Assembly (NCBI RefSeq): GCF_964355755.1
Contig: NC_092676.1
Location: 7,918,288 to 7,982,287 of the forward strand
Origin: Antedon mediterranea
Taxonomy: Eukaryota; Echinodermata; Crinoidea; Comatulida; Antedonidae
DNA: 64,000 bases
Direction of reading: 5' to 3'
Every line of letters starts with the position of its first letter. Position 1 is the first letter of the stretch. This document shows, in pieces, positions 2,407-57,355 of this stretch. Both the position numbers and the translations under genes were made by a program. A model generated the notes under the pieces. That model saw nothing but the letters and a program-made list of their open reading frames with translations. It was not told where the DNA came from and did not search any database.

Positions 2407-4027
<1,621 letters not shown>

Positions 4028-5870
4028 TCATATGGTGTCTCTTGTGTGTGTTCTCAAATGTTTTTTCAAATTTCCACCGTCTTTGAATTTCTTTCCACAA
4101 TGTTCACATTCATATGGTGTCTCTCCTGTATGTATTCTCAAATGCATGTTCAAACTCCCACTTGTTTTAAATTTCTTCCCACAATGTTCACATTCATATG
4201 GTGCCTCTCCTGTATGTGTTCTCAAATGTTTTTTCAAATCCCCTCTATGGTTAAATTTCTTCCCACAATGTTCACATTCATATGGTGTCTCTCCTGTATG
4301 TATTCTCAAATGCATGTTCAAATTCCCACTTGTTTTAAATTTCTTCCCACAATGTTCACATTCATATGGTGTCTCTCCTGTATGTATTCTCAAATGCTCG
4401 TTCAAATTCCCACTTGTTTTAAATTTCTTCCCACAATGTTCACATTCATATGGTGCCTCTCCTGTGTGTATTCTCAAATGCATGTTCAAATTCCCACTTC
4501 GGTTAAATTTCTTCCCACAATGTTCACATTCATATGGTGTCTCTCCTGTGTGTATTCTCAAATGCATTTTCAAACTAGAACTTTCTTTAAATTTCTTCCC
4601 ACAAAGTTCACATTCATATGGTGTCTCTCCTGTGTGTACTCTCAAGTGCGTTTTCAAACTCCCACTTGTTTTAAATTTCTTCCAACAATTTTCACATTCA
4701 TATGGTGTCTCTCCTGTGTGTACTCTCAAATGCGTTTTCAAACTACAACTTGTTTTAAATTTCTTCCCACAATGTTCACATTCATATGGTGTCTCTCCTG
4801 TGTGTACTCTCAAGTGCTTTTTCAAATTCCCACTTATTTTAAATTTCTTCCCACAATGTTCACATTCATATGGTGTCTCTCCTGTGTGTACTCTCAAATG
4901 TACGTTCAATTTCCCACTTCGGTTAAATTTCTTCCCACAATGTTCACATTCATATGTCATCTCTCCCGTGTGTACTCTTAAGTGCTTTTTCAAATTCCCA
5001 CTCTGTTTAAATTTCTTCCCACAATGTTCACATTCATATGGTGTCTCTCCCGTGTGTACTCTCAAGTGCTTTTTTAAATCCCCACTTGTTTTAAATTTCT
5101 TCTCACAATGTTCACATTCACATGGTGTCTCTCCTGTGTGTATTCTCAAATGCGTTTTGAAATGCCCACTATGGTTAAATTTCTTCCCACAATGTTCACA
5201 TTCATATGGTCTCTCTCCTGTGTGTAATCTCAAGTGCGTTTTCAAATTCCAATTTGTTTTAAATTTCTTCCCACAATGTTCACATTCATATGGTGTCTCT
5301 CCTGTGTGTACTCTCAAATGTATGTTCAATTTCCCACTTCGGCTAAATTTCTTCCCACAATGTTCACATTCATATGTCATCTCTCCCGTGTGTACTCTTA
5401 AGTGCTTTTTCAAATTCCCACTCTGTTTAAATTTCTTCCCACAATGTTCACATTCATATGGTGTCTCTCCCGTGTGTACTCTCAAGTGCTTTTTTAAATC
5501 CCCACTTGTTTTAAATTTCTTCCCACAATGTTCACATTCACATGGTGTCTCTCCTGTGTGTATTCTCAAATGCGTTTTGAAATGCCCACTCTGGTTAAAT
5601 TTCTTTCCACAATGTTCACATTCATAAGGTGCCTCTCCTGTATGTATTCTCACATTATTCCCACAATGTTCAGTTTCGTCTTCATCTATATCTACATCAC
5701 TCAGTTGTGTTTTAAAATCATCTTCATATAATGGTGTCTCCTGGTAGTGTTCACATTTTAACTTGTCTGTCTGTGTATGTATTCCTAAATGTTTCTTCAA
5801 ATCACTGAACTCAAATTTATCTCCACAATGTTCACATTTATATTTCATGATGTTGGTTTTTCGTTTATTC
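4028..5870 (-). CDS. C2H2 poly-zinc-finger protein (20 fingers), main exon
   Basis: Probable nuclear DNA-binding protein. From the ATG at 5846-5848 it starts MKYKCEHCGDKF, a divergent first finger, then an acidic spacer (about residues 30-65), then 19 tandem fingers of the type [10 protein letters not shown]-x5-L-x-x-HLRxH. The linkers are TGETPYE/TGEAPYE, close to the canonical TGEKPY linker. Helix residues vary among fingers (TSGNLKT, QSGNLKK, RSGKLNV, TSGDLKK, HRGDLKK), so several base specificities are likely. Fingers 1-5 and 6-10 of the tandem part form a 420-bp higher-order repeat. No KRAB, BTB or SCAN domain is visible. The frame ends in TRDTI-stop, produced by a 2-nt loss in a linker, so the protein is shorter than the ancestral one. 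A good acceptor (TTTGTAG) lies directly upstream at 5871-5873, and the frame is open through it, so an upstream exon is likely. Function is unknown. Confidence 0.8.
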
Positions 5871-8088: not shown

Positions 8089-10291
<2,203 letters not shown>

Positions 10292-29787: not shown

Positions 29788-32700
29788 CTGAAAGAATGAA
29801 TGAATGATGGTTAATACTACATCTTATCTTCTTCCAGCTAATCTAAAAATTCTACCAAATTTAATTTCATGGAACACTAACAACAACAAAACAAAAAGAT
29901 AACGAGAAGATACGCAACATGTCCATATAAACACTTACATCATTTTTTGCTACTGGCGTGGTTCTTCTTGCTCTTTTCATAATTTCATCTACACGCTGTA
30001 ATAAAAGAAAAAAAATGTTTTACAAAATGCTGAAAATGTTAAAACCATGGTGCTATAATTAAGCATTGATATCTCGCTGATGGTGCCAAAGACATATGCT
30101 TACTACATGCACAGCACTAAACAACCAAAATAATTTTTTTTTTAAAGTAAATAAATGATGGTACCTTCTTCCTTGCATCTCGTGCTTCTTCTTCCTTCTT
30201 TAATTTTTCTGTTAATTCTTCTTCCCTTCTTTTCTTTTCTTCTGCCTTGACTCGTTCTTCCTCTTCCTTCTAAAAATATAAAAATTAAATAATGTCAAAA
30301 AAATTAAATTACAGTGACCAAAGATTTCCAACACTAATGAGAAGGTACATCAATGTACATATCCACACTGCGATAAGTTTGCATTATGGGATTATGTTTC
30401 CATTCGTATTTGATCAAAATAATAACCGGGGTAAATAATAACAATTTTATTATGTTAAATTGCAAGATATAAACTTTACTCTTTTCTCATCTTCTTCTTG
30501 CTGTAATTTTTCTTCTTCTTCCCTTTTTTCCTGTTCTTCTATTGCCTTTTGTAACCGTTCCTCCTCTGCCTTTCTGTATTCCACTGCTATTCTTTGTTGC
30601 TCCTCTTCTTCTCTTATTCTTTCCTCTTCCTCTCTCTTTAGTCGTTCTTCCTCGTCTTTTCTAAGAGGTTTAAATATTAACGTGTGAATAACTACAAATT
30701 GAATTCAATGAAATACAATATACAGTAAATCCCTTCCTTTGGGACAACCCTATTCAGGGGACACCCCACACTATCCTTTTTTTTTTGGATCCCAAAAGTG
30801 CTGAATCTTAATTAATAATAGACTTATCTACAAACAGAATTTCCGACACATTTTGCCAACAACGATAATAATAAAATGCACAAAAGACTTACTTTTCTTG
30901 TTCTATACGTTGTCTTTCTAGTTCTGCCTCCCTTTCAGCTTTCTCTCTCATTTGCCGCCTCTTCTCTGCCAAAGCCTGTTTTGCCCTTTCCTCAGCTGTT
31001 AATTCAGGTGGTGGGCTACTTGTTTCAGAAACAGGACCTACAAAATAGTTGTACAACCGTTGTTAAATATTATACAACACACAATAAATACAAGAGGTAC
31101 TCACTTCTGTTTTGAGCCTTCCTCTTGGGCTATTTGCAAAATTGTTAATAAATAAATACAGTGTCATGTTGAGCTGTGGGACAGGGATTATACCATTTTT
31201 TGCCAATACTTTGGGATATATTTGTCATCTACCTACTTTTTCTATCCTGTTCTACAGGTTGTGGAGCGTCAAATTTAGGAAGTGCCTCCTCTTTTGGTGT
31301 TGTTGCTTTTGGAGGCTCTTTGTTTTCTTGAACTTTAGGTGCAGTAGCTGCGGCTTTGGGTGCTGTCGCTGCTTTGGGGGGAGCTGTTGCTGTTTTGGGT
31401 GGTGCTGTGGTTTTGGGCGTTGTTGCAGTTTTGGGCGTTGTTGCCGTTTTGGGTGTAGCTGCTGGTTTAGGCGTTGATTTGTTGGCGGCTGGTGTTTTTG
31501 CAGTCGACGTCCTTAGGCTTGTTGGGGTTTTAGCGCCCGATGTTCGAGTAGTTGGTGTTTTACTGGATACTGGAGTTTTATTAGTACTTGGAGTTCTAGG
31601 GGTTCGTGTTGGAGATGATTTTGCTGGTGTCAATGCCTTTTTAATTGGAGGAGGCTGACTTGATTTGGATACTGTAAAATACAGGAAATAATACACTAAT
31701 AATACAATAAATACATAACATTAACAGGATCTAGTTGTTTAACAACTGTAATTTCTTTGTTTCAGTGTGAACTAATAGGCCTGATTAGCACTCTGCAAGT
31801 TTATTGCATTGTAATGACCAATTATCTTTGCTACATTATATTGACTCAACTTAGTACTTGATTAGCATTACTAGTTGTATCATAAAGTCATTCTCAAACT
31901 TTTTTGGAAACACATAGTATACACAGCAAAGCTAACTTTACTAAAGCTCTATCTAAACTATCAAACTAGTGTGATGTGACAAAATATGGTTGTGATGACA
32001 TCATCATGTCCATACATTTTGATAGTGTATATTTAGATGGTTACAGTAACAACATAGGCAAAGGCAATATCTGGAAAGTAAATATAAATACTGATGTGAA
32101 CTGACCTGGTGTTTTACTATTTTTATCAGCTGGACTCTTGCTGTCTACCGTTGTTGCGTTCTTCTTCAATCTTAGCGATGGTTGTCTAACATGCATACTG
32201 GAATTATTAGAACTAGTTGGTGTACCCGCTGAGGGTTTAGGAGAGGGTGCTCGAATACCTTTAGGTGAAGCCGGTCTTTGAGTCTGTAAGGAAAAATTGT
32301 ATTAATTTATAATGGCACAAGAAAAAAAATTGGTGGATTTATTCCGAGTAGACTTGTTTAACACAAAGTAGATTTTGTTATAGTTACTTTAAATACAGTA
32401 TATGGCCATACTGCATTGAAACACCGGATGGCCTGGTTGTGTTCTGAATGTATACACTGAGAGTGATGGTAATGATAATATCGAACTAGCATGATAGGCA
32501 TGGGTTCAAGCCTATCTGTGCCATACTTAGGCAAAATGCTTTACTATAATTGCCTCGTCCTTCGGATGGGATGTAAAGCCATTGGTCTTGTGTACATATA
32601 GTGTATGTTAAAGAACTTGGTACGCTATTTAAAATGGGTAGGAGGCCGTCTCCCTGTGAGCTGATATGGTAGGGGCTGCACTGCTGGCTGCTGTGGGTTC

Positions 32701-38700: not shown

Positions 38701-41700
38701 CTTCAAACCAGTCGTTTTCGTTAGGTCCAAGTCGTACAAGCTGCACAGGATTCCATAGTGTTGAAACGGAAGAAGATAGTCTTTTGTTGACACCCCCACC
38801 GGCTGGTACAACCTCTGGTGTGTCGTTTAATCGTTCCATACTGCGACCTCTAGGTGGCGCACTCACAGGAACCTCTTTAGTCGGGTCCCACGATCGCCTT
38901 TTCTCACGGCTACCTGCACTCTGCGATCGTTCTATTGACCGACGTACTATAGATTCCCGATGAACCTAAGATAAAAAACAATTAGTTTTCACGATTATCA
39001 ATGGTTTAATATTTTGAATGAGCTTCAAAATAACTTATAATTTTAAACGAAGCAGAACAAAATACAAACAATTGACCAGGTTAGTGATAGTTCAGAATGA
39101 GTCACCTACTGCTAGCAATAATAGACAATGCATCAGTTATGATTCACTCTCCCTGTCTGGTTTTATATCTTTTAGTTTATATTAGTGAGTTTAACATGTA
39201 TCTAGTACAGTTAATGCAGTTATTAAATCAAGTAGAAATCCTCCTTTGGAACACCCTATTAAGAGAACAATGAACAAGGGGCAATGTATGTTTTAACACT
39301 AATGCCCTTTTCACACCTTAAAAAAAAAAACTACTTATAACACGTTTTAACCAGGTTTGCAAAGACACTCTCAAGATTTCACAAGGGACTCCTGTGAAAT
39401 TTTGGAAGAAAACACTTGTTCCAAGATGTTACTGCGTGTGCGTGTCTTGCCCTTGTATTAAACTGACCAATCATAGTAATCAAATAGCGCACAACTATGC
39501 TTTCTCCCGAGATTTCTTACGGTTTGCATGCGCTTATGGAAACGTGTAATAAATTGAGAGATCAAACCTGGTTACCACTTGCGAAGACGTGAAAAGGGTA
39601 TGAGGCAATTAAGGAGAGACTTTGTCGTGTCTCAAAGGTGCATCATTGCTATTAATCAGGAGATTTTACTGTGAAGTATCCATATCACTCACACAGGTGG
39701 TGAAACAGAACAAAAACCATAATGGACAAAATCATTTTTTTAAATATTTTTTTATACTGTATGTTTCATTAATATTTGACTCATTATTGCGTGCCTTTTA
39801 GACACATTTCAATGATCAAAACTAGCAAGACCACCAACTACAAAATACCTTCTTTTCTTCCTCCTGTTTCTTTCTACGTTCTTCAACGGCTTGTCGTTTC
39901 TGTTCCTTAGTTTGTTTTTGTTGGTCTATCGCCTGCTTTTGTAGTTGTAATTGCTTGTTTCTATATTTCTGTTGACGAACAGATTTGTCCTTTAATTTCG
40001 AGGCATCTATAACTGTAAAATAAATAAACAGATTTGTCCTTTAATTTCGAGGCATCTATAACTGTAAAATAAATAAACAGATTTGTCCTTTAATTTCGAG
40101 GCATCTATAACTGTAAAATAAATAAACTTATTTTTAACATAGAATTACCTATACTTAAGATACAGTTTATAATGGAATGTATTTACAAAAAATTTAAAAA
40201 AAGTCTTCTTGGATAAAAGGACTATAAACCGTAGGTCCAGTGTACACATCTGGCTCATGTGCATTTTAAAGAACCCAGTACATCTTTCGAGACGAGTATG
40301 GGGTTACCCCGGTGTACTACTAGTATACACACAGGCACTGTAACACACAACCACTGTCACACTCATCAAGAGGGCCCCTTGATTGTCAGCATACGCTGTT
40401 TAGGGTCACACTATAAATAAGGTGAAATAAATAATAACGATTAGATAACGCAATATCTAAGGAAATGAACCCTTTCTTCAAAAAGTGAAGGTGCAGCCAC
40501 AAGCTATGCTTCTTGAATCTTTCAATATTAAATCCAGATTTTACATGAATTTTTAAGGCAAATAGCAAAAACTCTGTGCACCTATATAAGACAATGGTAA
40601 CAATCTTTAATAGTTTTCTATGTCATAGATCTATTATATCAAAATTAGTTTACTATATTTACAAAATATGATATTATTAATAAATCAAGGCTATACTGTA
40701 CATCAGGACACATCAACCTCCATCATACTGTACGTTTTTGTTTTATTTTCCCTCAGGATATTTTGATAAAAAATGTTGAAACATACATTAACAGATGAAA
40801 TAGATATGTGTGGAAAGCTGTTCATGTGTGTCATCACAGGCACTCTACTACTATCTAACGCTTTTCCTGTTGAAATATTGATGGTACCCAATTATCACAT
40901 CGCACCTATCTATTTCTCACCTTTCTGTCCCATCCTACATTTGAATATTATTAGTATGATCACTCTAACTTCCTGTTCTCCATCAGGTATAAACCACACC
41001 TACTTATCAAATTTCTCAACAGTTCCATATGACTGGATTTGAAGAGGGATAGATAATTGCGATGTACAGAGTAATCCTTATTTAGCTAGGTAGGTAGGCA
41101 ATCACCAAGTTGGCATATAGTAGAACCTCTCATTTCAAACACCCCTATTAACATAAGGGGGGGGGGGGGAATTTCCCTTGAAACGAACAAGGGAAATGCC
41201 AACACACTAAGGCTTACCTCCCTATTCAGCTGGGGCACTATATAATATAAAGGGGACAATTTTCACTGAAAAGAAGGAAAGGGTGTTTTCTAAGGCCAGC
41301 CTCTATTAAGGGGACAACAATACAAACAAGAGAAAAAAATGTTTAACACTACTAAAGAAAATCTATTGAGGGAACGCTTGTTAGTTTCCTAAGGTGTCCC
41401 TTTAATAGCGGTTCTACTGTATCATGAAATAGTTTAGAATTAAATTCAAATTTATTCCTTACATCAATCAATTTTATTTCAAAATAATATTGTCTATTGA
41501 ATGAAAATTAAGTATTTTTTTTAAATACATCAGAAACTAAACTACAAAGAAATGAATCTCATAACCTAATTCTTAATCTAAAAATAAAATTCTGAAATAG
41601 TACATTAATGAAAAATAGTATCATCTAAAAAAATATCTTCAAAAGTAATTTAATTGCAAACTGATCGAGGATTTACATTTGACAAAATCAGGGCGTTTCT

Positions 41701-44700
41701 CTTGTAGTAAGTATACTGCTTTCAAATCTAATGAAAAACAGATCAAGGAATTGAGTTTTTTTTTTCAATCTGGGCGTTTCTCAATCATAGCGTTATTCTT
41801 TGATTACTACACAAAAATATAGTAATGGATTTAAGCAATTTTTCCCTACGCTAAATTGAGTCCCAGTCACAGTTTTTTACAGTAACTTCTTGCTTTTGAT
41901 TTTTTTATGCAAAAAAACTGATTGAAAGTAATACTGTACAACTTTCATGGAAAAAAAAAAAAGGGGAAAAACGAACATTTGTCGCAATTATCACGGGTCA
42001 AATGTGATCATGTGATAAAGCGATTTTCTTAAACTGTTCTCTCAAGACACACTTCAAACTATTAACACACACAACATTTCCGTCAAAACATATATTTTTT
42101 TTTCAAGATTCGTTGAAAATCTTATCTGACATACAATCCGATTTACTTTTCCCAAGTTAGAGGCAATGTGATTTAAAGATTTAATGACTTAATAGAAAGA
42201 AGATTGTTACTAAAGATTTCTAATAATATACTCAGAAATAAAAAAAAATGAAATAAAAAAACAATTTTGAATAGAGTACATAATTTTATGATCATGTCAA
42301 AATTGTTCTCATGCAATTACTGCAGTAAACTACATTTTTTTTAGTGTGTTTCTATGTACTGTAGAAGCTTAAAGGCAGTCGAAATTACCCATAAAGGTTT
42401 TTAATAATATTGCCTAAACTAGTTAATTTAGAGTATACAAATTACTGCAGTTGTTGGTCCCTTATAAAATTACTGCAGTTGTTGGTACCTTATAAAATTA
42501 CTGCAGTTGTTGATACTGTACCTTATAAAATTACTGCAGTTGTTGGTCCCTTACAAATTATGGCAGTTGTTGGTCCCTTATAGAATTACTTTTTATTATA
42601 CAGTAGATAGATTTATAATCATTTAGCCAAACAAGAATATAACATTTAATTTATTTACAAAATTATCAAATATTATACCTATTTGATTGAACATGCTTGT
42701 GGACAAATGCATAAGATTTTTGTTTACTGTAAATCTAGGTCGCTAGATTCATGTAAACTGATTTTGATGGAAAGGTCACAGGGTCAAATAGCCAGTTTGT
42801 AGGAATTATTAATCAATTTAATAGTGGTATTTGAGGTTTGATGTGAGGCAATACAGAGGGCATGATTCACAACCATTCATGTGTATTCCAGGAACACCAA
42901 TTTACTATCAATGGAAGTACATCTAAATTTAATTAGTAAAATAGAAAAAAAGGCTATTTGTAGGTTCTGACTTTAAACAAAATAAATTTAATTAATAAAA
43001 TAGAAAAAAAAAGTTAATACCACTTTTTAAACTAAACTATTTTTTTCCCTGACTTTAAAAATAAAGGATTTAATTTTATTGTTCATTACGCAAAACATCA
43101 CTATTTATAGAAAACATTGTTGAGGAAAAACATTTTATGATTTTATTACGATAGTCCTACCAAGCGACAAACAATTAGGAAAAATAAAATATTACTAATA
43201 ATATTTTTAGCAGTGCAAAATAACTATGTTGCTCAAGTTATAAAAGTAAAAGGCTGCAGATTTATACTATACTATCATTAGTATTATGTCAATTTTAATA
43301 AACCAGGGCATCACGTATGCAAAACCCAGGAGAGCAACAAATCGCTCTCCTCAAATCACCGAGGAGAGCAATTCGCTCTCCTTGCAAAAATTTTAAATCG
43401 CTCTCCTCAAATATTTATGTTGAAGTTGAAGGATGGTCGCCCTTATTAAAAATGGCTGGCCCTTATTAATTTTTTGTACACATTTTTTTGCCCGACAGGG
43501 GATAACCCCCCCCCCCCCCCCCGGGCACAACAAATGTATACTGTACCTCTCCCCTAAAATCCCCCACACCCACCTTTACACACAATATTTGGCGCTAGTT
43601 CCGTTTCGCACCTGTCGTTTATTTCGACTCAAAATTGGTTAAGTAACTTTATCGTGAGTACCACACCTTAGAATGAGGCCTCAAAAATACTTTTACGAAG
43701 GAGATCACACAAAAAGTAAAAAACAAATCCTTTAAATTGATGAATTTACAGACGTCTTTCTCGAACATCGGTTCGTGAATTTCGCATACTCCATGTTCAA
43801 TGTTGTTGTTTTTATGGAGCGCCAACAGAGCAATCATAATAGAGGGCTAAAAACTCAGTAAATTGCGTATATTTAATGCATTTATTGGTGAAAATTACGT
43901 TCAATTTTATCATATTTTGTCAATGTCAATGCAACAAAAATATTACTGTTGATACTGTACATGGTTTTTGCAGGAACTTTTAGGAATGAAAATCGACAAA
44001 TTCATCATCATATTACATGTACTGTAGGGGTATATCTGATCTAAATAATATTCCTGTTAGTCTTAGTCTTACTCTTAGGCCTAGCTAGGGGTGGTTGCTA
44101 TTTGAAAACAGCAAATTATTAGCAGTAAAATGTTACAGCATTTTATTGACAAAATATATTAAAATTAAACGTGTATTTCAATAAAAAATGCATTAAAAGA
44201 AGACGCATTCCACTGAGATTTTAACCATCTATTGTTGTTGCTCTTTTGGCGCTCCATAGAAACGAAAATATTGAACTTCGAGTATGCTAAATTCGCGAAC
44301 GGTATGCGCGAGAAACATGTCTGTAAAATCATCAATTTAAGGTTTTATTTGTTACTTTTTATGTGATTCTTCTTCATAAAAGTACTTATAAGGCCCAATT
44401 TTAAGGTGTAGTATTCACAATAAGCTGCTTAACAATTTGGAGTCAAAAAGAAGTCGAAATAAAAACAGGTGCGAAACGGAACTAGCGCCCAATATTTTCC
44501 GTGGGGATCGTATTATTCTACAGTACAAAAAACTCAAGCCAATTTTTTTTTTATGGCCTGCCTGGGTAGATTGGGTTTCAGGAGCCTGGAGAATCCTGTC
44601 CTGGCCAACTATATCATATGCCTAGGCTTTAGCCTAGCTTGTTGGCCTAGAAATCAGACAGAAAACCTGAAAAGTATTTACCTGCAATTCATAAATTATA

Positions 44701-47700
44701 CAATTCTAACATGCAACAGGCATTAAAATATTGATAATAAGTTACAAAGTGTCATTTTAAAATAATTAAGAAAGATATTTGATCGTGTTTACATGTGTCA
44801 CACATGGGCGCACGCACAATAGGGGAGGGCTGAGAGAGCTTCTAGAAGATGCTGACGTCACACATCAGCACGTGTTTTGAGGAGGATTTGAGTGACCAAA
44901 ATTGGTTAGAACTTTCGAAGAAATAATCCATCTTCAAAATGACTTAATTAAAGCAACCAGCAGCTAAGCTTTTTTAAATAATAAACATTATATTTAGGCC
45001 TCCTATATTAATGTTTCCTTTTAAAATTAAATATATTTTATTAACTCGTTCCATAAAAACATAAAGGGAAAAATTATTGGTTGGGACTTGATCTTCCTGT
45101 AAAGGAGGTGTTTCTATGACACCGTACTGGTTGCACTATGAGGCGATGAAGTAAACTCGCCCTTGAATGCGCGCAGGCAGGGGAATCCCCTTTGTTGGTA
45201 CCTCGCACTGTGAGATGGAGCGCGATGAATTGCTCTCCTTTTCGAAGGTTGTTGATTGCGATCGCGCTCGCGATCCTTAAAAACGAGGGACTGCCATTAG
45301 GCTTGTAGCTTTATAACTTAGCTTATATATTATTAGCCTAGGCCTAGATTGGTTTTAACTTTTAAAAATCCACGTGTTTTTAGGCCTCTTGACAGAAAAG
45401 TCAACACTGTCAAAATCTAGGCTCTATTTTGAAAATTAAGGAGCGCGATAAATTGCTCTCCTCGAAGCCTGTTGAGGAGCGCGGAGGAGCGCGGTCGCGC
45501 AGGCGCTCCTTATAAATGATGCCCTGATAAACAGAAAATTAATGACAACTTGTTATAAATTGACAATTCTCTATTGTAAGGTGATAAATTACCGACATTA
45601 CCTACACAAAGCTATGAATTATAAGTACCAATCTCAAATCTCTTTTAAACAACCAAACAATACAACGAAAAAATTTTAAGATACTTTAATAGTCAAAGTA
45701 TTAATTTGGTTTCATTAACTTGTCCATTTATCTTTATAATAATTTGGAATTTGACATGTCGATACTAAAATAAACAGTTGGAAATAGCTTTATCATGATG
45801 ATGATGCATTTGCACTAATTTGAGGTGGGGCAAAACATTCTAAATTGTCTGATAAGTCTATACAGTAGATACAACATTTAGTAACTAGCCAACAAGCCTT
45901 AGTACAGTGCCATATCCAGGAAAATAAAGTGGTGAGGTGGTCGCAAAAAAGGGAATAATTCCCTTTCCAGCCCATGCAGTTCATAGTTCATTTAATCTGT
46001 CCATACGGATTCATGTGACATACAATTTCTCAAAGTTAAAAGGTTAATACAATAAAATTACATAGCAACAAAATTCAACGACATAACAACGGTTATTAAA
46101 ATGTCTAATTGAGTACGGAATAAAATAATTAAGAAAGCGTTTTGTTCTACAACGTGTAGCCCTCAAACACCTTCCAGTTGTCAACATTTCTGTTAAAAAG
46201 TGGTCAGGTTGAAACCTTACCAACCGTTCTGGTAGCTATTAAAGGCCCTGTAGTAATTGTTACCTCCTATGGCACAGTAGCTTCACCAACTAGCTTCTTT
46301 AATCAAATTTTTCACATCACTTCAATAGTAGCCTCACCAACAATCCTCATATAATATATATTCATTCTAAAAACATCACACCACCCACCCTAGATCCACA
46401 TAATTATTACTACAATGATGAATTACAACACACTCGATACATAAGCTTCCAACATTTTACATCATTATTTTGTCGTCATGCTCCACATCATTAATTTTAC
46501 ATACATACTTGCTAATGTATGTACTACACAAGTATTCACACAGCTCATATTATTAACAGCTCTAGTGATTCCTAGCATCAGCCAACACAACCTTAAACAT
46601 CAACCAATGACTGTTCATATTCTGCTACCAACATAAAAGAGTATTTTTTCCTGTAATTCTCTGTCTTCACTATCAAACTAGTTTGACAAAAAAAGTGTGA
46701 TGCACCCAAATATGGTAGTGATATGCCCAAATATGGTTGTGATATAACATCATGTCCATGGGCACATTACATTTTTTTTGTCCCATAAAGTTTGATTGTG
46801 TAGACTGACAAAACTGACTACTGAAGCCATCTACTGTACTCATTGAGGCTGAAAGATGGCGGGAAGGGGAGGGATGTTTAGGGAGTTTTATATACATTTT
46901 TTTGTTAAATATAGGTTGGTTATCTGATAAACCTGGCCATAGCATGGCGGTGTATAAGTAGTAGTAGCATTATGGGAGTATGTTTGCAGACGCATTTGAT
47001 CCAAACATGACCGGGATAATAATATGGCCTTGTGCATTAAGCACTAAAAGAACGACGTATTATTATTACAAGAACCTGGGGTTAAAAATTCAAGTTTCAA
47101 GTTTAGTGTTTCACAGAATATAATATAAGAAAATATACAGATGATTTGCTAAATTAATAAATATAATTGTGTGAAGAGGATGCATTAAGCCAAGGCTTTA
47201 AGTTTGGTCCTCCAAATAAAAGATATATCCAATCTGCAGTATATATAAATAATATGATTATTTAATTTAAGTGAGAGAGAAAAAAAACACACTTCACAAT
47301 TATTATATACACAAAAAACAAAGTAGATTTATTAGGGGTGGGGGGGATGGGGTATCTGGATTTCACAGACACCACCCCCTGGATCCGTTGTAAGGGATGG
47401 GGTTAGGTAATACTTACCAGGTAGGGATGAGGTGTCTGGATTACATGGACAGCACCCCCCCCCCCCCTCCCCCGGATCCATTGTAAGGGATGGGGTTAGG
47501 TAATACTTACCAGGTAGGGATGAGGTGTCTGGATTCCACAGACAGCACCCCCCCCCCCTCCCCGGATCCATTGTAAGGGATGGGGTTAGGTAATACCTAC
47601 CAGGTAGGGATGAGGTGTCTGGATTTCACAGACACCACCCCCCGGATCCATTGTAAGGGATGGGGTTAGGTAATACCTACCAGGTAGGGATGAGGTGTCT

Positions 47701-47835
47701 GGATTTCACAGACACCACCCCCCGGATCCATTGTAAAGGATGGGGTTAGGTAATACCTACCAGGTCGTCTATGCTTTGCTTGATTGTCACTGTCAGTGGT
47801 TTTGTCTTTATCTTCTTCTTTTTTGTCGTCAGTAT
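26578..47835 (-). CDS. MAP7: MAP7/ensconsin-family microtubule-associated protein
   Basis: Reconstructed gene, 5' incomplete. Main exons in transcript order: 47835-47761, 40012-39849, 38965-38596, 32935-32790, 32283-32106, 31671-31237, 31037-30893, 30660-30480, 30269-30165, 29995-29939, 29787-26578. All junctions are GT-AG with matching phases and give about 1,687 residues. MAP7 proteins bind microtubules through an N-terminal coiled coil and recruit kinesin-1 through the C-terminal MAP7 domain. Here the coil ends EEEKKVHRESIVRRSIERSQ, like human HEAVVRRTMERSQ, and KRLSSSVSTLWN matches KRLSSSSATLLN. The MAP7 domain spans five exons from ELTAEERAKQALAEKRRQ to ARKKRVDEIMKRARRTTP (human ERKKRLEEIMKRTRRTE). 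The following tail of about 1,070 acidic residues is not known to me from vertebrate members. Cassette exon candidates lie between the third and fourth main exons. Confidence 0.9.
29939..29995 (-). CDS. MAP7: MAP7 exon: end of the MAP7 domain
   Basis: 57 nt, phase 0 at both ends; RVDEIMKRARRTTPVAKND. VDEIMKR is the family hallmark. Confidence 0.93.
30165..30269 (-). CDS. MAP7: MAP7 exon: MAP7 domain helix
   Basis: 105 nt, phase 0 at both ends; KEEEERVKAEEKKRREEEL ... EARDARKK, a charged single helix or coiled coil. Confidence 0.93.
30480..30660 (-). CDS. MAP7: MAP7 exon: MAP7 domain helix
   Basis: 181 nt; the first base completes a Lys codon. E/R/K/Q-rich helix (ERLKREEEERIREEEEQQR). Confidence 0.93.
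30720..30800. repeat. Partial TACAGTA-type MITE
   Basis: TACAGTAAATCCCTTCCTTT with CCCTATTCAGGGGACACCCC, a single-ended relative of the element at 22550-22961, inside a MAP7 intron. Confidence 0.6.
30893..31037 (-). CDS. MAP7: MAP7 exon: start of the MAP7 domain
   Basis: 145 nt; SETSSPPPELTAEERAKQAL then AEKRRQMREKAEREAELERQ. Matches the family start E-A-x-R-x-L-A-E-K-R-R-x-x-R-E. Confidence 0.93.
31237..31671 (-). CDS. MAP7: MAP7 exon: basic Thr/Pro/Ala/Lys linker
   Basis: 435 nt; imperfect repeats of ATPKTAT/APPKAAT flanked by SKTPTTRTSGAKTP. Low-complexity, basic and Pro-rich like the P-domain of MAP7, expected to be disordered and microtubule-proximal. Confidence 0.9.
31941..32040. repeat. 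Palindromic MITE, CTATCAAACT family, copy 1
   Basis: AAGCTCTATCTAAACTATCA ... core GACATCATCATGTCCAT ... TGATAGTGTATATTTAGAT. Four more copies at 46.7, 52.6, 54.2 and 60.0 kb. Confidence 0.75.
32106..32283 (-). CDS. MAP7: MAP7 exon: Ser/Pro-rich linker
   Basis: 178 nt; TQRPASPKGIRAPSPKPS and RQPSLRLKKNATTVDSK. Multiple SP sites. Confidence 0.9.
32440..32760 (+). repeat. tRNA-derived SINE, family 2
   Basis: Head with GGCATGGGTTCAAGCC, body CTTAGGCAAAATGCTTTAC, CCTCGTCCTTCGGATGGGA, TAAAGCCATTGGTC and GTTAAAGAACTTGGTACG. In a MAP7 intron, sense to the plus strand. Confidence 0.7.
32790..32935 (-). CDS. MAP7: MAP7 exon: Ser/Pro/Arg linker
   Basis: 146 nt; ATSQNKSSPGTPIRRTPSGS and ERKTPSPAQSAAK. 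Begins with two bases of a split codon, completed by T from the constitutive upstream exon or by the last base of a cassette exon. Confidence 0.9.
33873..33896 (-). CDS. MAP7: MAP7 24-nt cassette microexon (candidate)
   Basis: Bounded by a TAG acceptor (33897-33899) and a GTGAGT donor (33867-33872). In the required phase it adds ATRRRYR plus split codons, a strongly basic insert, with no stop. Insertion or skipping keeps the frame. Confidence 0.6.
34672..34834. repeat. MITE with inverted ends
   Basis: AAGCTTAGTTTCCACTTAGA pairs imperfectly with CCAAGTGGTACCCAAGCCTT; internal GACCAATGACAAGCG / GCGATTGGTCAATT are also inverted. Confidence 0.6.
36027..36149 (-). CDS. MAP7: MAP7 123-nt cassette exon (candidate)
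   Basis: Acceptor ATTAACAG at 36150-36152, donor ATAT|GTAACT at 36021-36026. In the phase set by the upstream exon it encodes FEGVEYLEDFEDILEEEHVG, then AFPQKHRYACSTASSRSRI: an acidic-aromatic half followed by a basic/Ser half, with no stop. Its GC content and codon-like structure stand out from the AT-rich intron. 123 nt is a multiple of three and both ends match the neighbouring phases. Confidence 0.7.
37042..37236. repeat. GAT/AAT-rich low-complexity tract
   Basis: Degenerate trinucleotide tract (GATGATGATAATGATGAATG-like). Its plus-strand Asp/Asn open frame is a consequence of the repeat. Confidence 0.8.
37790..37852 (-). CDS. MAP7: MAP7 63-nt cassette exon (candidate)
   Basis: Preceded by an excellent polypyrimidine tract and acceptor (TTTTTCTCTACTTTTAG) and ending at AAG|GTTCAT, a weak donor. 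In the phase of the upstream exon it is open and reads NTTWVRSTLAALIELPPHVQ. GC-rich compared with its flanks. The weak donor is the main doubt. Confidence 0.45.
38596..38965 (-). CDS. MAP7: MAP7 exon: end of the N-terminal coil and linker
   Basis: 370 nt, phase 0 start; VHRESIVRRSIERSQ ... KRRSWDP, then NKRLSSSVSTLWNPVQ and RSPSPGIDDSNSTYTPRH. The first two blocks align with conserved positions of vertebrate MAP7. Ends SSSPNLA plus T of a split codon. Confidence 0.93.
39305..39598. repeat. MITE with nested inverted repeats
   Basis: Outer CCCTTTTCAC / GTGAAAAGGG and inner TAACCAGGTTTG / CAAACCTGGTTA; lies in the MAP7 intron. Confidence 0.7.
39849..40012 (-). CDS. MAP7: MAP7 exon: N-terminal basic coiled coil
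   Basis: 164 nt; ASKLKDKSVRQQKYRNKQLQ ... KRQAVEERRKKQEEEKK. The Q/K/R/E-rich helix corresponds to the microtubule-binding coil. An alternative TAG acceptor 5 nt inside the exon would shift the frame and is unlikely. The first 34 nt of the exon and its acceptor are part of the 49-bp tandem repeat. Confidence 0.9.
39979..40125. repeat. Three tandem 49-bp copies across a MAP7 3' splice site
   Basis: The unit starts ACAGATTTGTCCTTTAATTT at 39979, 40028 and 40077, and each contains exon-start sequence, the acceptor CTGTAAAATAA (minus-strand TTATTTTACAG) and a short intron stub. Copies look identical. Acceptors fall at 40013, 40062 and 40111. Confidence 0.95.
40205..40345 (+). repeat. SINE family 3, copy 1
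   Basis: ACCGTAGGTCCAGTGTACAC, CTCATGTGCATTTTAAAGAACCC and GGGGTTACCCCGGTGTACTA. Reverse-oriented relatives at about 55850 and 63067. Confidence 0.7.
41116..41421. mobile_element. MITE with TATAGTAGAAC/GTTCTACTGTA ends
   Basis: Same termini and CCCTATTA / GGGGACA vocabulary as 22550-22961, but without an array expansion; a run of G occurs at about 41156-41170. Confidence 0.75.
42440..42590. repeat. 28-bp minisatellite, five copies
   Basis: Unit AAATTACTGCAGTTGTTGGT plus CCCTTATA; one copy is 5 bp longer. Intronic. Confidence 0.85.
43304..45526. mobile_element. DNA transposon with 6-bp target duplication
   Basis: CAGGGCATCA (43304-43313) and TGATGCCCTG (45517-45526) are perfect inverted ends, flanked on both sides by ATAAAC. 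Near both ends GCTCTCCTC/GAGGAGAGC words are repeated. No transposase recognised. It contains a second, younger element. Confidence 0.85.
43591..44489. mobile_element. Nested MITE with long arms and 8-bp target duplication
   Basis: Starts GGCGCTAGTTCCGTTTCGCA and ends with its reverse complement style (GGTGCGAAACGGAACTAGCGCC region). Arms of about 250 bp are inverted copies. CAATATTT is duplicated exactly at 43583-43590 and 44490-44497. 8-bp duplications are made by hAT and P superfamilies. Confidence 0.9.
46661..46808. repeat. Palindromic MITE, CTATCAAACT family, copy 2
   Basis: CACTATCAAACTAGTTTGAC ... CCCAAATATGGTAGTGATAT ... AAAGTTTGATTGTGTAGAC. Confidence 0.8.
47340..47760. repeat. Minisatellite carrying five splice-donor copies
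   Basis: Units of 93, 90, 80 and 80 bp (GGATCCATTGTAAGGGATGG ... TAATACCTACCAG). On the minus strand each copy has CTG|GTAGGTATT or CTG|GTAAGTATT; the last one is the true donor of the MAP7 exon at 47761. Donor bases end at 47417, 47510, 47600, 47680 and 47760. Poly-C tracts vary between copies. Confidence 0.93.
47761..47835 (-). CDS. MAP7: MAP7 exon: most 5' coding exon found
   Basis: 75 nt, acceptor CCTTTTCCAG, donor CCTG|GTAGGT. Encodes TDDKKEEDKDKTTDSDNQ then AKHRRP and joins in frame to VIDASKLKDK. Acidic then basic, no start codon. The initiator exon must lie further right or outside the window. Confidence 0.8.
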
Positions 47836-48126: not shown

Positions 48127-48600
48127 ATGGCCAGGCTTCCCAAATATAGGACCAGGCTTCCCAAATATAGGACCAGGCTTCCCAAATATAGGACTAGGCT
48201 TCCCAAATATAGGACAAGGCATCCCAAACATAGGACCAGGCTTCCTAAATATAGGACCAGGCTTCCTAAATATATGACCAGGCTTACTAAATATAGGACC
48301 AGGATTTCCAAATATAGGACCAGGCTTCCTAAATATAGGACCAGGCTTACTAAATATAGGACCAGGCTTCCCAAATATAAGATCAGTCAGGCTTTCCAAA
48401 TATGGGACAGGCTTCCTAAATATAGGCCCAGGCTTCCTAAATATAGGACCAGGCTTCCTAAATATAGGACCAGGCTTCCAAAATATAGGACCAGGCTTCC
48501 CAAATATAGGACCAGGCTTCCCAAATATAGGACCAGGCTTCCAAAACATAGGACCAGGCTTCCCAAATATAGGAACAGGCTTCTCCAATATTTTTACAGG
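48127..48600. repeat. 21-bp minisatellite, more than 20 copies
   Basis: Unit AGGACCAGGCTTCCCAAATAT and variants. Because 21 is a multiple of three, all strands stay open (minus strand PIFGKPG, plus strand RLPKYRT), but there is no splice context or start supporting a protein. Confidence 0.95.
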
Positions 48601-56919: not shown

Positions 56920-57355
56920 ACCTATTAAGGGGACACTTTTCTTTGAAACAAATAAGAGGCATATCTGCAACCCCTATAAAGGGAACATCCCTATAAAGGG
57001 AACACCCCTATTAAGGGAACACCCCTATTAAGGGAACACCCCTATTAAGGGAACACCCCTATAAAGGGAACACCCCTATTAAGGGAACACCCCTATAAAG
57101 GGAACACCCCTATTAAGGGAACACCCCTATTAAGGGAACACCCCTATTAAGGGAACACCCCTATTAAGGGAACACCCCTATTAAGGGAACACCCCTATAA
57201 AGGGAACACCCCTATAAAGGGAACACCCCTATAAAGGGAACACCCCTATTAAGGGAACACCCCTATAAAGGGAACACCCCTATAAAGGGAACACCCCTAT
57301 TAAGAGGACATTTTGTTGGGTCCTGAAGGTGACACCTGAATAGCAGTTTCACCTA
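56920..57355. repeat. 17-bp array of 20 units in a TACAGTAGAAC-family remnant
   Basis: Unit CTATTAAGGGAACACCC or CTATAAAGGGAACACCC from 56975 to about 57303. Outer pieces (CCTATTAAGGGGACAC; GGTGACACCTGAATAGCAGT) belong to the same family as 22550-22961. Writing A for ATAAAG and T for ATTAAG, the order is AATTTATATTTTTAAATAAT. Confidence 0.92.

Follow-up and report, generated by a model that had tools for sequence, protein, structure and literature searches.

The splice sites at both ends of a long intron in a gene assigned to the MAP7 family of Antedon mediterranea have been multiplied in tandem, the acceptor three-fold and the donor five-fold. We conclude that these are probably two independent minisatellites that each span a splice junction and are tolerated since an intact junction remains beside each exon. 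The arrays look less like a device than like a by-product that a repeat-rich genome tolerates. The observations behind this reading are the anatomy of the locus, the reading frames produced by each choice of sites, the recurrence of such arrays at the acceptors of two other genes and the scarcity of local repeats at the ends of domain matches. Positions are those of the window (the whole stretch of 64,000 nucleotides that was analysed) unless another locus is named.

The intron and its neighbouring exons are arranged as follows:

39849–40012, minus strand: 164-nt downstream coding exon, starting at the exon-proximal acceptor A1, at the edge of an Ensconsin-like N-terminal region
40013–47760, minus strand: intron, 7,748 nt in the open pairing of donor D1 with acceptor A1
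47761–47835, minus strand: 75-nt upstream coding exon, in phase 1 on either side, ending in CGACCTG and with acceptor CCTTTTCCAG

The reading frame through D1/A1 is open, in agreement with the extent that a first-pass annotation had given this intron. Its gene name, MAP7, also holds. Joined translations of exons further downstream contain the Pfam domain MAP7 (PF05672; E = 9.5e-18, 64.9 bits, cut-off 28.5), and the piece that includes the 75-nt and 164-nt exons, in which no Pfam family was found at E 0.01, resembles the solved-structure chain 7sgs, Ensconsin (E = 3.4e-9). The domain and the Ensconsin-like N-terminal region support membership of the MAP7 family. The alignment with 7sgs starts inside the 164-nt exon and leaves the 75-nt exon outside it. 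We rejected the possibility that the 75-nt exon is spurious, as its codon score is higher than that of all 3,876 stop-free windows (72 nt) taken from introns close by, whether or not the training set included MAP7; it also joins the next exon in phase. Both introns flanking the 164-nt exon are long, the downstream one, which begins at 39848, extending for about 880 nt until the following exon starts at 38965.

The acceptor and the start of the 164-nt exon are present in three copies:

39978–40127, minus strand: acceptor array, three identical 49-bp units, each TTATTTATTTTACAG plus 35 nt of exon start
40012, minus strand: first exonic base of A1, the real acceptor, after TTATTTTACAG
40061, minus strand: first base after the AG of A2, a decoy acceptor, after TTATTTTACAG
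40110, minus strand: first base after the AG of A3, a decoy acceptor, after TTATTTTACAG

Tandem-repeat analysis (TRF) describes a 49-bp unit in 3.1 copies with 100% matches, which confirms the triplication of acceptor plus exon start proposed in the first-pass annotation. A1 and A2 are identical in sequence from −66 to +35; the upstream identity between A1 and A3 is 17 nt. Because A1 and A2 share 66 nt upstream and 35 nt downstream, a local model cannot prefer one over the other, and wider context alone could separate them. At all three acceptors the strict YTNAY branch-point matches found within 45 nt are too near the AG, and our guess, made by eye, is that a looser TTAAA near each acceptor (inside the exon copy for A1 and A2) serves as branch point. 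A second AG, which the earlier annotation did not mention, lies 6 nt into the exon (TTATAG) and likewise keeps the frame.

The donor end of the intron carries an array of a different unit:

47376–47765, minus strand: donor array, five CTG/GTARGT copies (the slash marks the junction) 80–93 bp apart
47760, minus strand: first intron base of D1, the exon-proximal donor, CTG/GTAGGT
47680, minus strand: D2, decoy donor, GTAGGT
47600, minus strand: D3, decoy donor, GTAGGT
47510, minus strand: D4, decoy donor, GTAAGT
47417, minus strand: D5, decoy donor, GTAAGT

All five units carry CTG/GTARGT, and each donor copy is preceded by five exon-like nucleotides (ACCTG). From D1 to D5 the successive spacings are 80, 80, 90 and 93 bp, and TRF reports 4.5 copies with 91% matches, so that the claimed five-fold copying in a unit of 80–93 bp stands. 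Single substitutions distinguish the copies, as does the length of a G tract, which is short in the D1, D2 and D5 copies and long in the D3 and D4 copies. The base that distinguishes the donors divides D1–D3 from D4–D5, unlike the G-tract split, and the variants therefore follow no single order along the array. Such mosaic variation resembles that of other minisatellites. Minisatellite units are roughly 10–100 bp long, and both MAP7 arrays fit this range (49 bp; donors 80–93 bp apart). A chance simulation was superfluous because three exact 49-bp copies and five in-register donors are present.

Two decoy donors had been described as better matches to consensus than the real one. This is correct for the sequence (GTAAGT against GTAGGT), but the gain in energy is small: computed U1 pairing is −10.7 kcal/mol for D1–D3 and −11.0 kcal/mol for D4 and D5, with −14.0 kcal/mol for the consensus CAG/GTAAGTAT. 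A hairpin with arms GGUAGGU and ACCUAACC is predicted at the real donor (−5.5 kcal/mol), and the predicted unpaired fraction is 0.09 at D1 versus 0.41 at D4 and 0.49 at D5. We rejected a hairpin that hides the real donor, since 76 of 200 shuffled sequences fold as well (z = −0.35) and the fold is thus no more stable than shuffled sequence.

We combined each of the five donors with each of the three acceptors and read the frame through the resulting 15 pairings. D1/A1 alone is open. Stops occur in the other 14, four of which have an added length divisible by three (D2/A2, D3/A3, D4/A3 and D5/A3). Use of an extra acceptor would lengthen the exon by 49 or 98 nt and shift the frame in either case, as the first-pass annotation had stated. 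When the +6 AG was used at each exon copy, one of 15 pairings was open (D1 with A1 minus 6 nt), giving two of 30 overall. These counts support the earlier statement that splicing must select the proximal site accurately. Skipping of the 75-nt exon, whose length is divisible by three and which has phase 1 on either side, would preserve the frame and could bypass the donor array.

When a tandem duplication extends across a splice junction, an intact junction always stays adjacent to the exon, and the change would be almost neutral provided that the spliceosome pairs D1 with A1, the sites nearest the exons, most of the time. Passages of one source state that under exon definition, when strengths are near-equal, the sites closest across the exon are favoured (PMC9225289); here these would be D1 and A1. 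For the 75-nt exon, whose neighbour upstream of 47835 was not located, exon definition is an assumption. The extra copies would then be decoys inside the intron, and leakage to them would produce early-stop transcripts, which nonsense-mediated decay would probably clear. The acceptor array, with its 100% identity, is presumably young, and the donor array, with its mosaic variation, may be older. Two considerations count against this choice of sites. Passages of the same source give the stronger 5′ site as dominant in 86% of events (PMC9225289), and the slightly better computed U1 pairing of D4 and D5 would thus speak against D1. An excerpted account of acceptor recognition describes a search for the first AG downstream of a single branch point (PMC1431707); such a scan, if its branch point lay upstream of the array, would choose A3, the wrong site, instead of A1. 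Exon proximity points to D1/A1 and first-AG scanning to A3, and the locus therefore separates two published rules.

As a control, we examined kinesin and myosin domain matches in the same genome, testing 160 ends of 80 matches for local repeats; match ends serve as proxies for exon ends and may miss the true ends. Three of the 160 ends were positive (two of 96 in a smaller earlier test), and two of these lie at acceptors and repeat the MAP7 pattern, a rate of 2/80 for acceptor arrays in this sample:

L011:92–1526 (kinesin locus G000:C5:31793997–31797206): array of a 70-bp unit × 20.5, upstream of a kinesin exon
L036:2316–2470 (G000:C5), minus strand: 51–52-bp units, upstream of a myosin acceptor

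At the kinesin locus the acceptor and exon start recur as 20 decoys ahead of the real acceptor; every one of the 20 keeps the AG, and every one leads to a stop when read in the frame of the real exon. At the myosin locus two full copies and one partial copy of the exon start ACTTTCACTGGATCCATT lie ahead of the real ACTTTTACTGGATCCATT, and the TAG of the real site is AAG in the decoys. MAP7 is not unique: junction-spanning repeats also occur at the acceptors of two other genes. The third positive end (L037:1465–1520) is an imperfect 28-bp pair beside a predicted myosin donor, apparently with no donor copy, and was left out of the count of splice-site copies, as were arrays at L005 and L017 that lie near but not over a junction. 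None of the 80 donor-side ends in the control had a copied donor. The MAP7 donor array is without counterpart in the kinesin and myosin sample, which only bounds the donor base rate. Within the window, 18 of 19 other MAP7 junctions placed by eye had no local repeat; the remaining one, the donor at 30164, has a single local match at −72.

We searched the genome with each array, and each matched its own locus and nowhere else, which bears out the earlier claim that the two repeat units are unrelated. The donor core, with up to three mismatches, occurred five times in the searchable 354-Mb assembly, all in the donor array; this search gave no control matches, and its coverage stops short of masked stretches and very common words. 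Within that coverage the donor unit is found only here, and we rejected a dispersed element or introner (a mobile intron-generating element). No link between the acceptor and donor arrays was found (different units; 100% versus 91% matches), and their presence in one intron could be a coincidence.

The genome is minisatellite-rich. Tandem repeats (period at least 15, score at least 60) account for 10,234 of the 155,808 bases in the control loci, with overlapping loci counted twice, and the local-repeat test was positive at 19 of the 352 window positions examined. They are rarer at match ends (3/160) than in the flanks of the control loci (77/864), although the Fisher p value of 0.001 is only indicative, because neighbouring positions share arrays and are not independent. 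Junctions look disfavoured for repeats, and selection seems to keep many repeats away from them. If the rates at each end were both about 1%, both ends would be hit by coincidence about once per ten thousand introns; we assume of the order of 100,000 introns in the genome, and some introns would therefore carry arrays at both ends. Coincidence can account for the two-ended arrangement, which this sample cannot prove.

A different account is regulated unproductive splicing, in which the decoys divert a controlled fraction of MAP7 pre-mRNA to decay and copy number tunes output. We consider this unlikely. The stops in 14 of 15 pairings are what it calls for, but stops inside an intron are expected by chance. 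The real donor is slightly weaker than two of the decoys, and the local identity of A1 and A2 makes some leak likely; against this, the identical acceptor copies look recent, arrays of the same kind sit at acceptors of unrelated genes, and the myosin decoys carry AAG instead of the TAG of the real site, as expected of useless copies. Tolerated repeat growth is the simpler account because like arrays are present at kinesin and myosin acceptors. We give little credence to a broader version, in which junction-spanning minisatellites form a genome-wide class here (both ends of the MAP7 intron, the 20-decoy kinesin array and the myosin array) and act as length-variable splicing rheostats, copy number setting the loss to decoys gene by gene.

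Assembly errors behind the copy number, or behind the arrays themselves, are very improbable. Three 49-bp units with 100% identity are a pattern that such an error could give, but the donor copies differ in substitutions and G-tract length and so are not a single read repeated several times, and the sequence at the array edges looks ordinary. It is scarcely credible that up to four identical in-frame 18-nt micro-exons, each adding DTSSLP, are included as cassettes: by eye an AG and 18 nt precede each of D2–D5 (ATCCAG/ACACCTCATCCCTACCTG/GTARGT) and the 18 nt keep the frame without a stop, but the tract before the AG is pyrimidine-poor (for example GGTGTCTGTGAAATCCAG) and the implied introns would be about 62–75 nt and G-rich.

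The reading that we favour, two tolerated minisatellites, has relatives in other systems. Human IFI6 is described as containing a minisatellite with several splice donors (work from 1995, cited in PMC4526556 and listed by title in the references of PMC2572611). As in IFI6, the MAP7 array spans an exon–intron boundary and has a donor in each unit (5/5). Downstream units are reported to be used in IFI6, whereas the MAP7 decoys are candidate donors in 80–93-bp units, and every decoy pairing tested meets a stop; in addition, the acceptor of the same MAP7 intron is multiplied. According to passages of another report, minisatellites (internal tandem repeats) at exon–intron boundaries of human paralogs can alter splicing (PMC2812944); compared with what is described there, the MAP7 intron keeps its place and gains decoys. 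Excerpts on Drosophila genes describe intron sliding or tandem duplication, in which proto-splice sites are copied in tandem and all 18 intron sequences of this type carry premature stops (PMC2891723). The MAP7 arrays are similar to that case in the tandem duplication of splice-site sequence accompanied by premature stops, but they involve no claimed novel intron position, the duplicated piece being an existing junction. In the splice-site proximity experiments of Reed and Maniatis, as described in passages of PMC9225289, the competitors have a common partner site and the outcome depends on distance; MAP7, in contrast, is a natural locus with a long intron and both ends multiplied. A search of literature titles, at the level of listings and passages, found none on an intron with both ends multiplied. 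The kind is already known from the IFI6 minisatellite and from boundary repeats, and the unusual points are the two-ended arrangement and the 20-decoy kinesin array.

The identity of A1 and A2, together with the 20 near-identical kinesin decoys, offers a natural test of how a choice is made between near-identical splice sites. Models of splice-site strength cannot split A1 from A2, and junction counts would therefore test exon distance against a first-AG scan and against leak followed by decay. Should copy number be variable in the population, its alleles would supply a natural dose series.

Other repeats were seen in the window. A minisatellite of 21 bp × 21.8 occupies 48131–48591, about 300 nt upstream of the 75-nt exon, and another of 17 bp × 19.7 (96% matches) occupies 56970–57304. 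Two long arrays of an 84-bp unit lie at 2412–5652 and 8094–10076 (38.7 and 23.7 copies) and are zinc-finger-like in length alone. Among the myosin matches of the genome, 19 myosin-head matches at about 19.6–25.1 Mb of G000:C3 cover about the same profile positions (342–408) along one chromosome region, which suggests a possible amplified myosin family.
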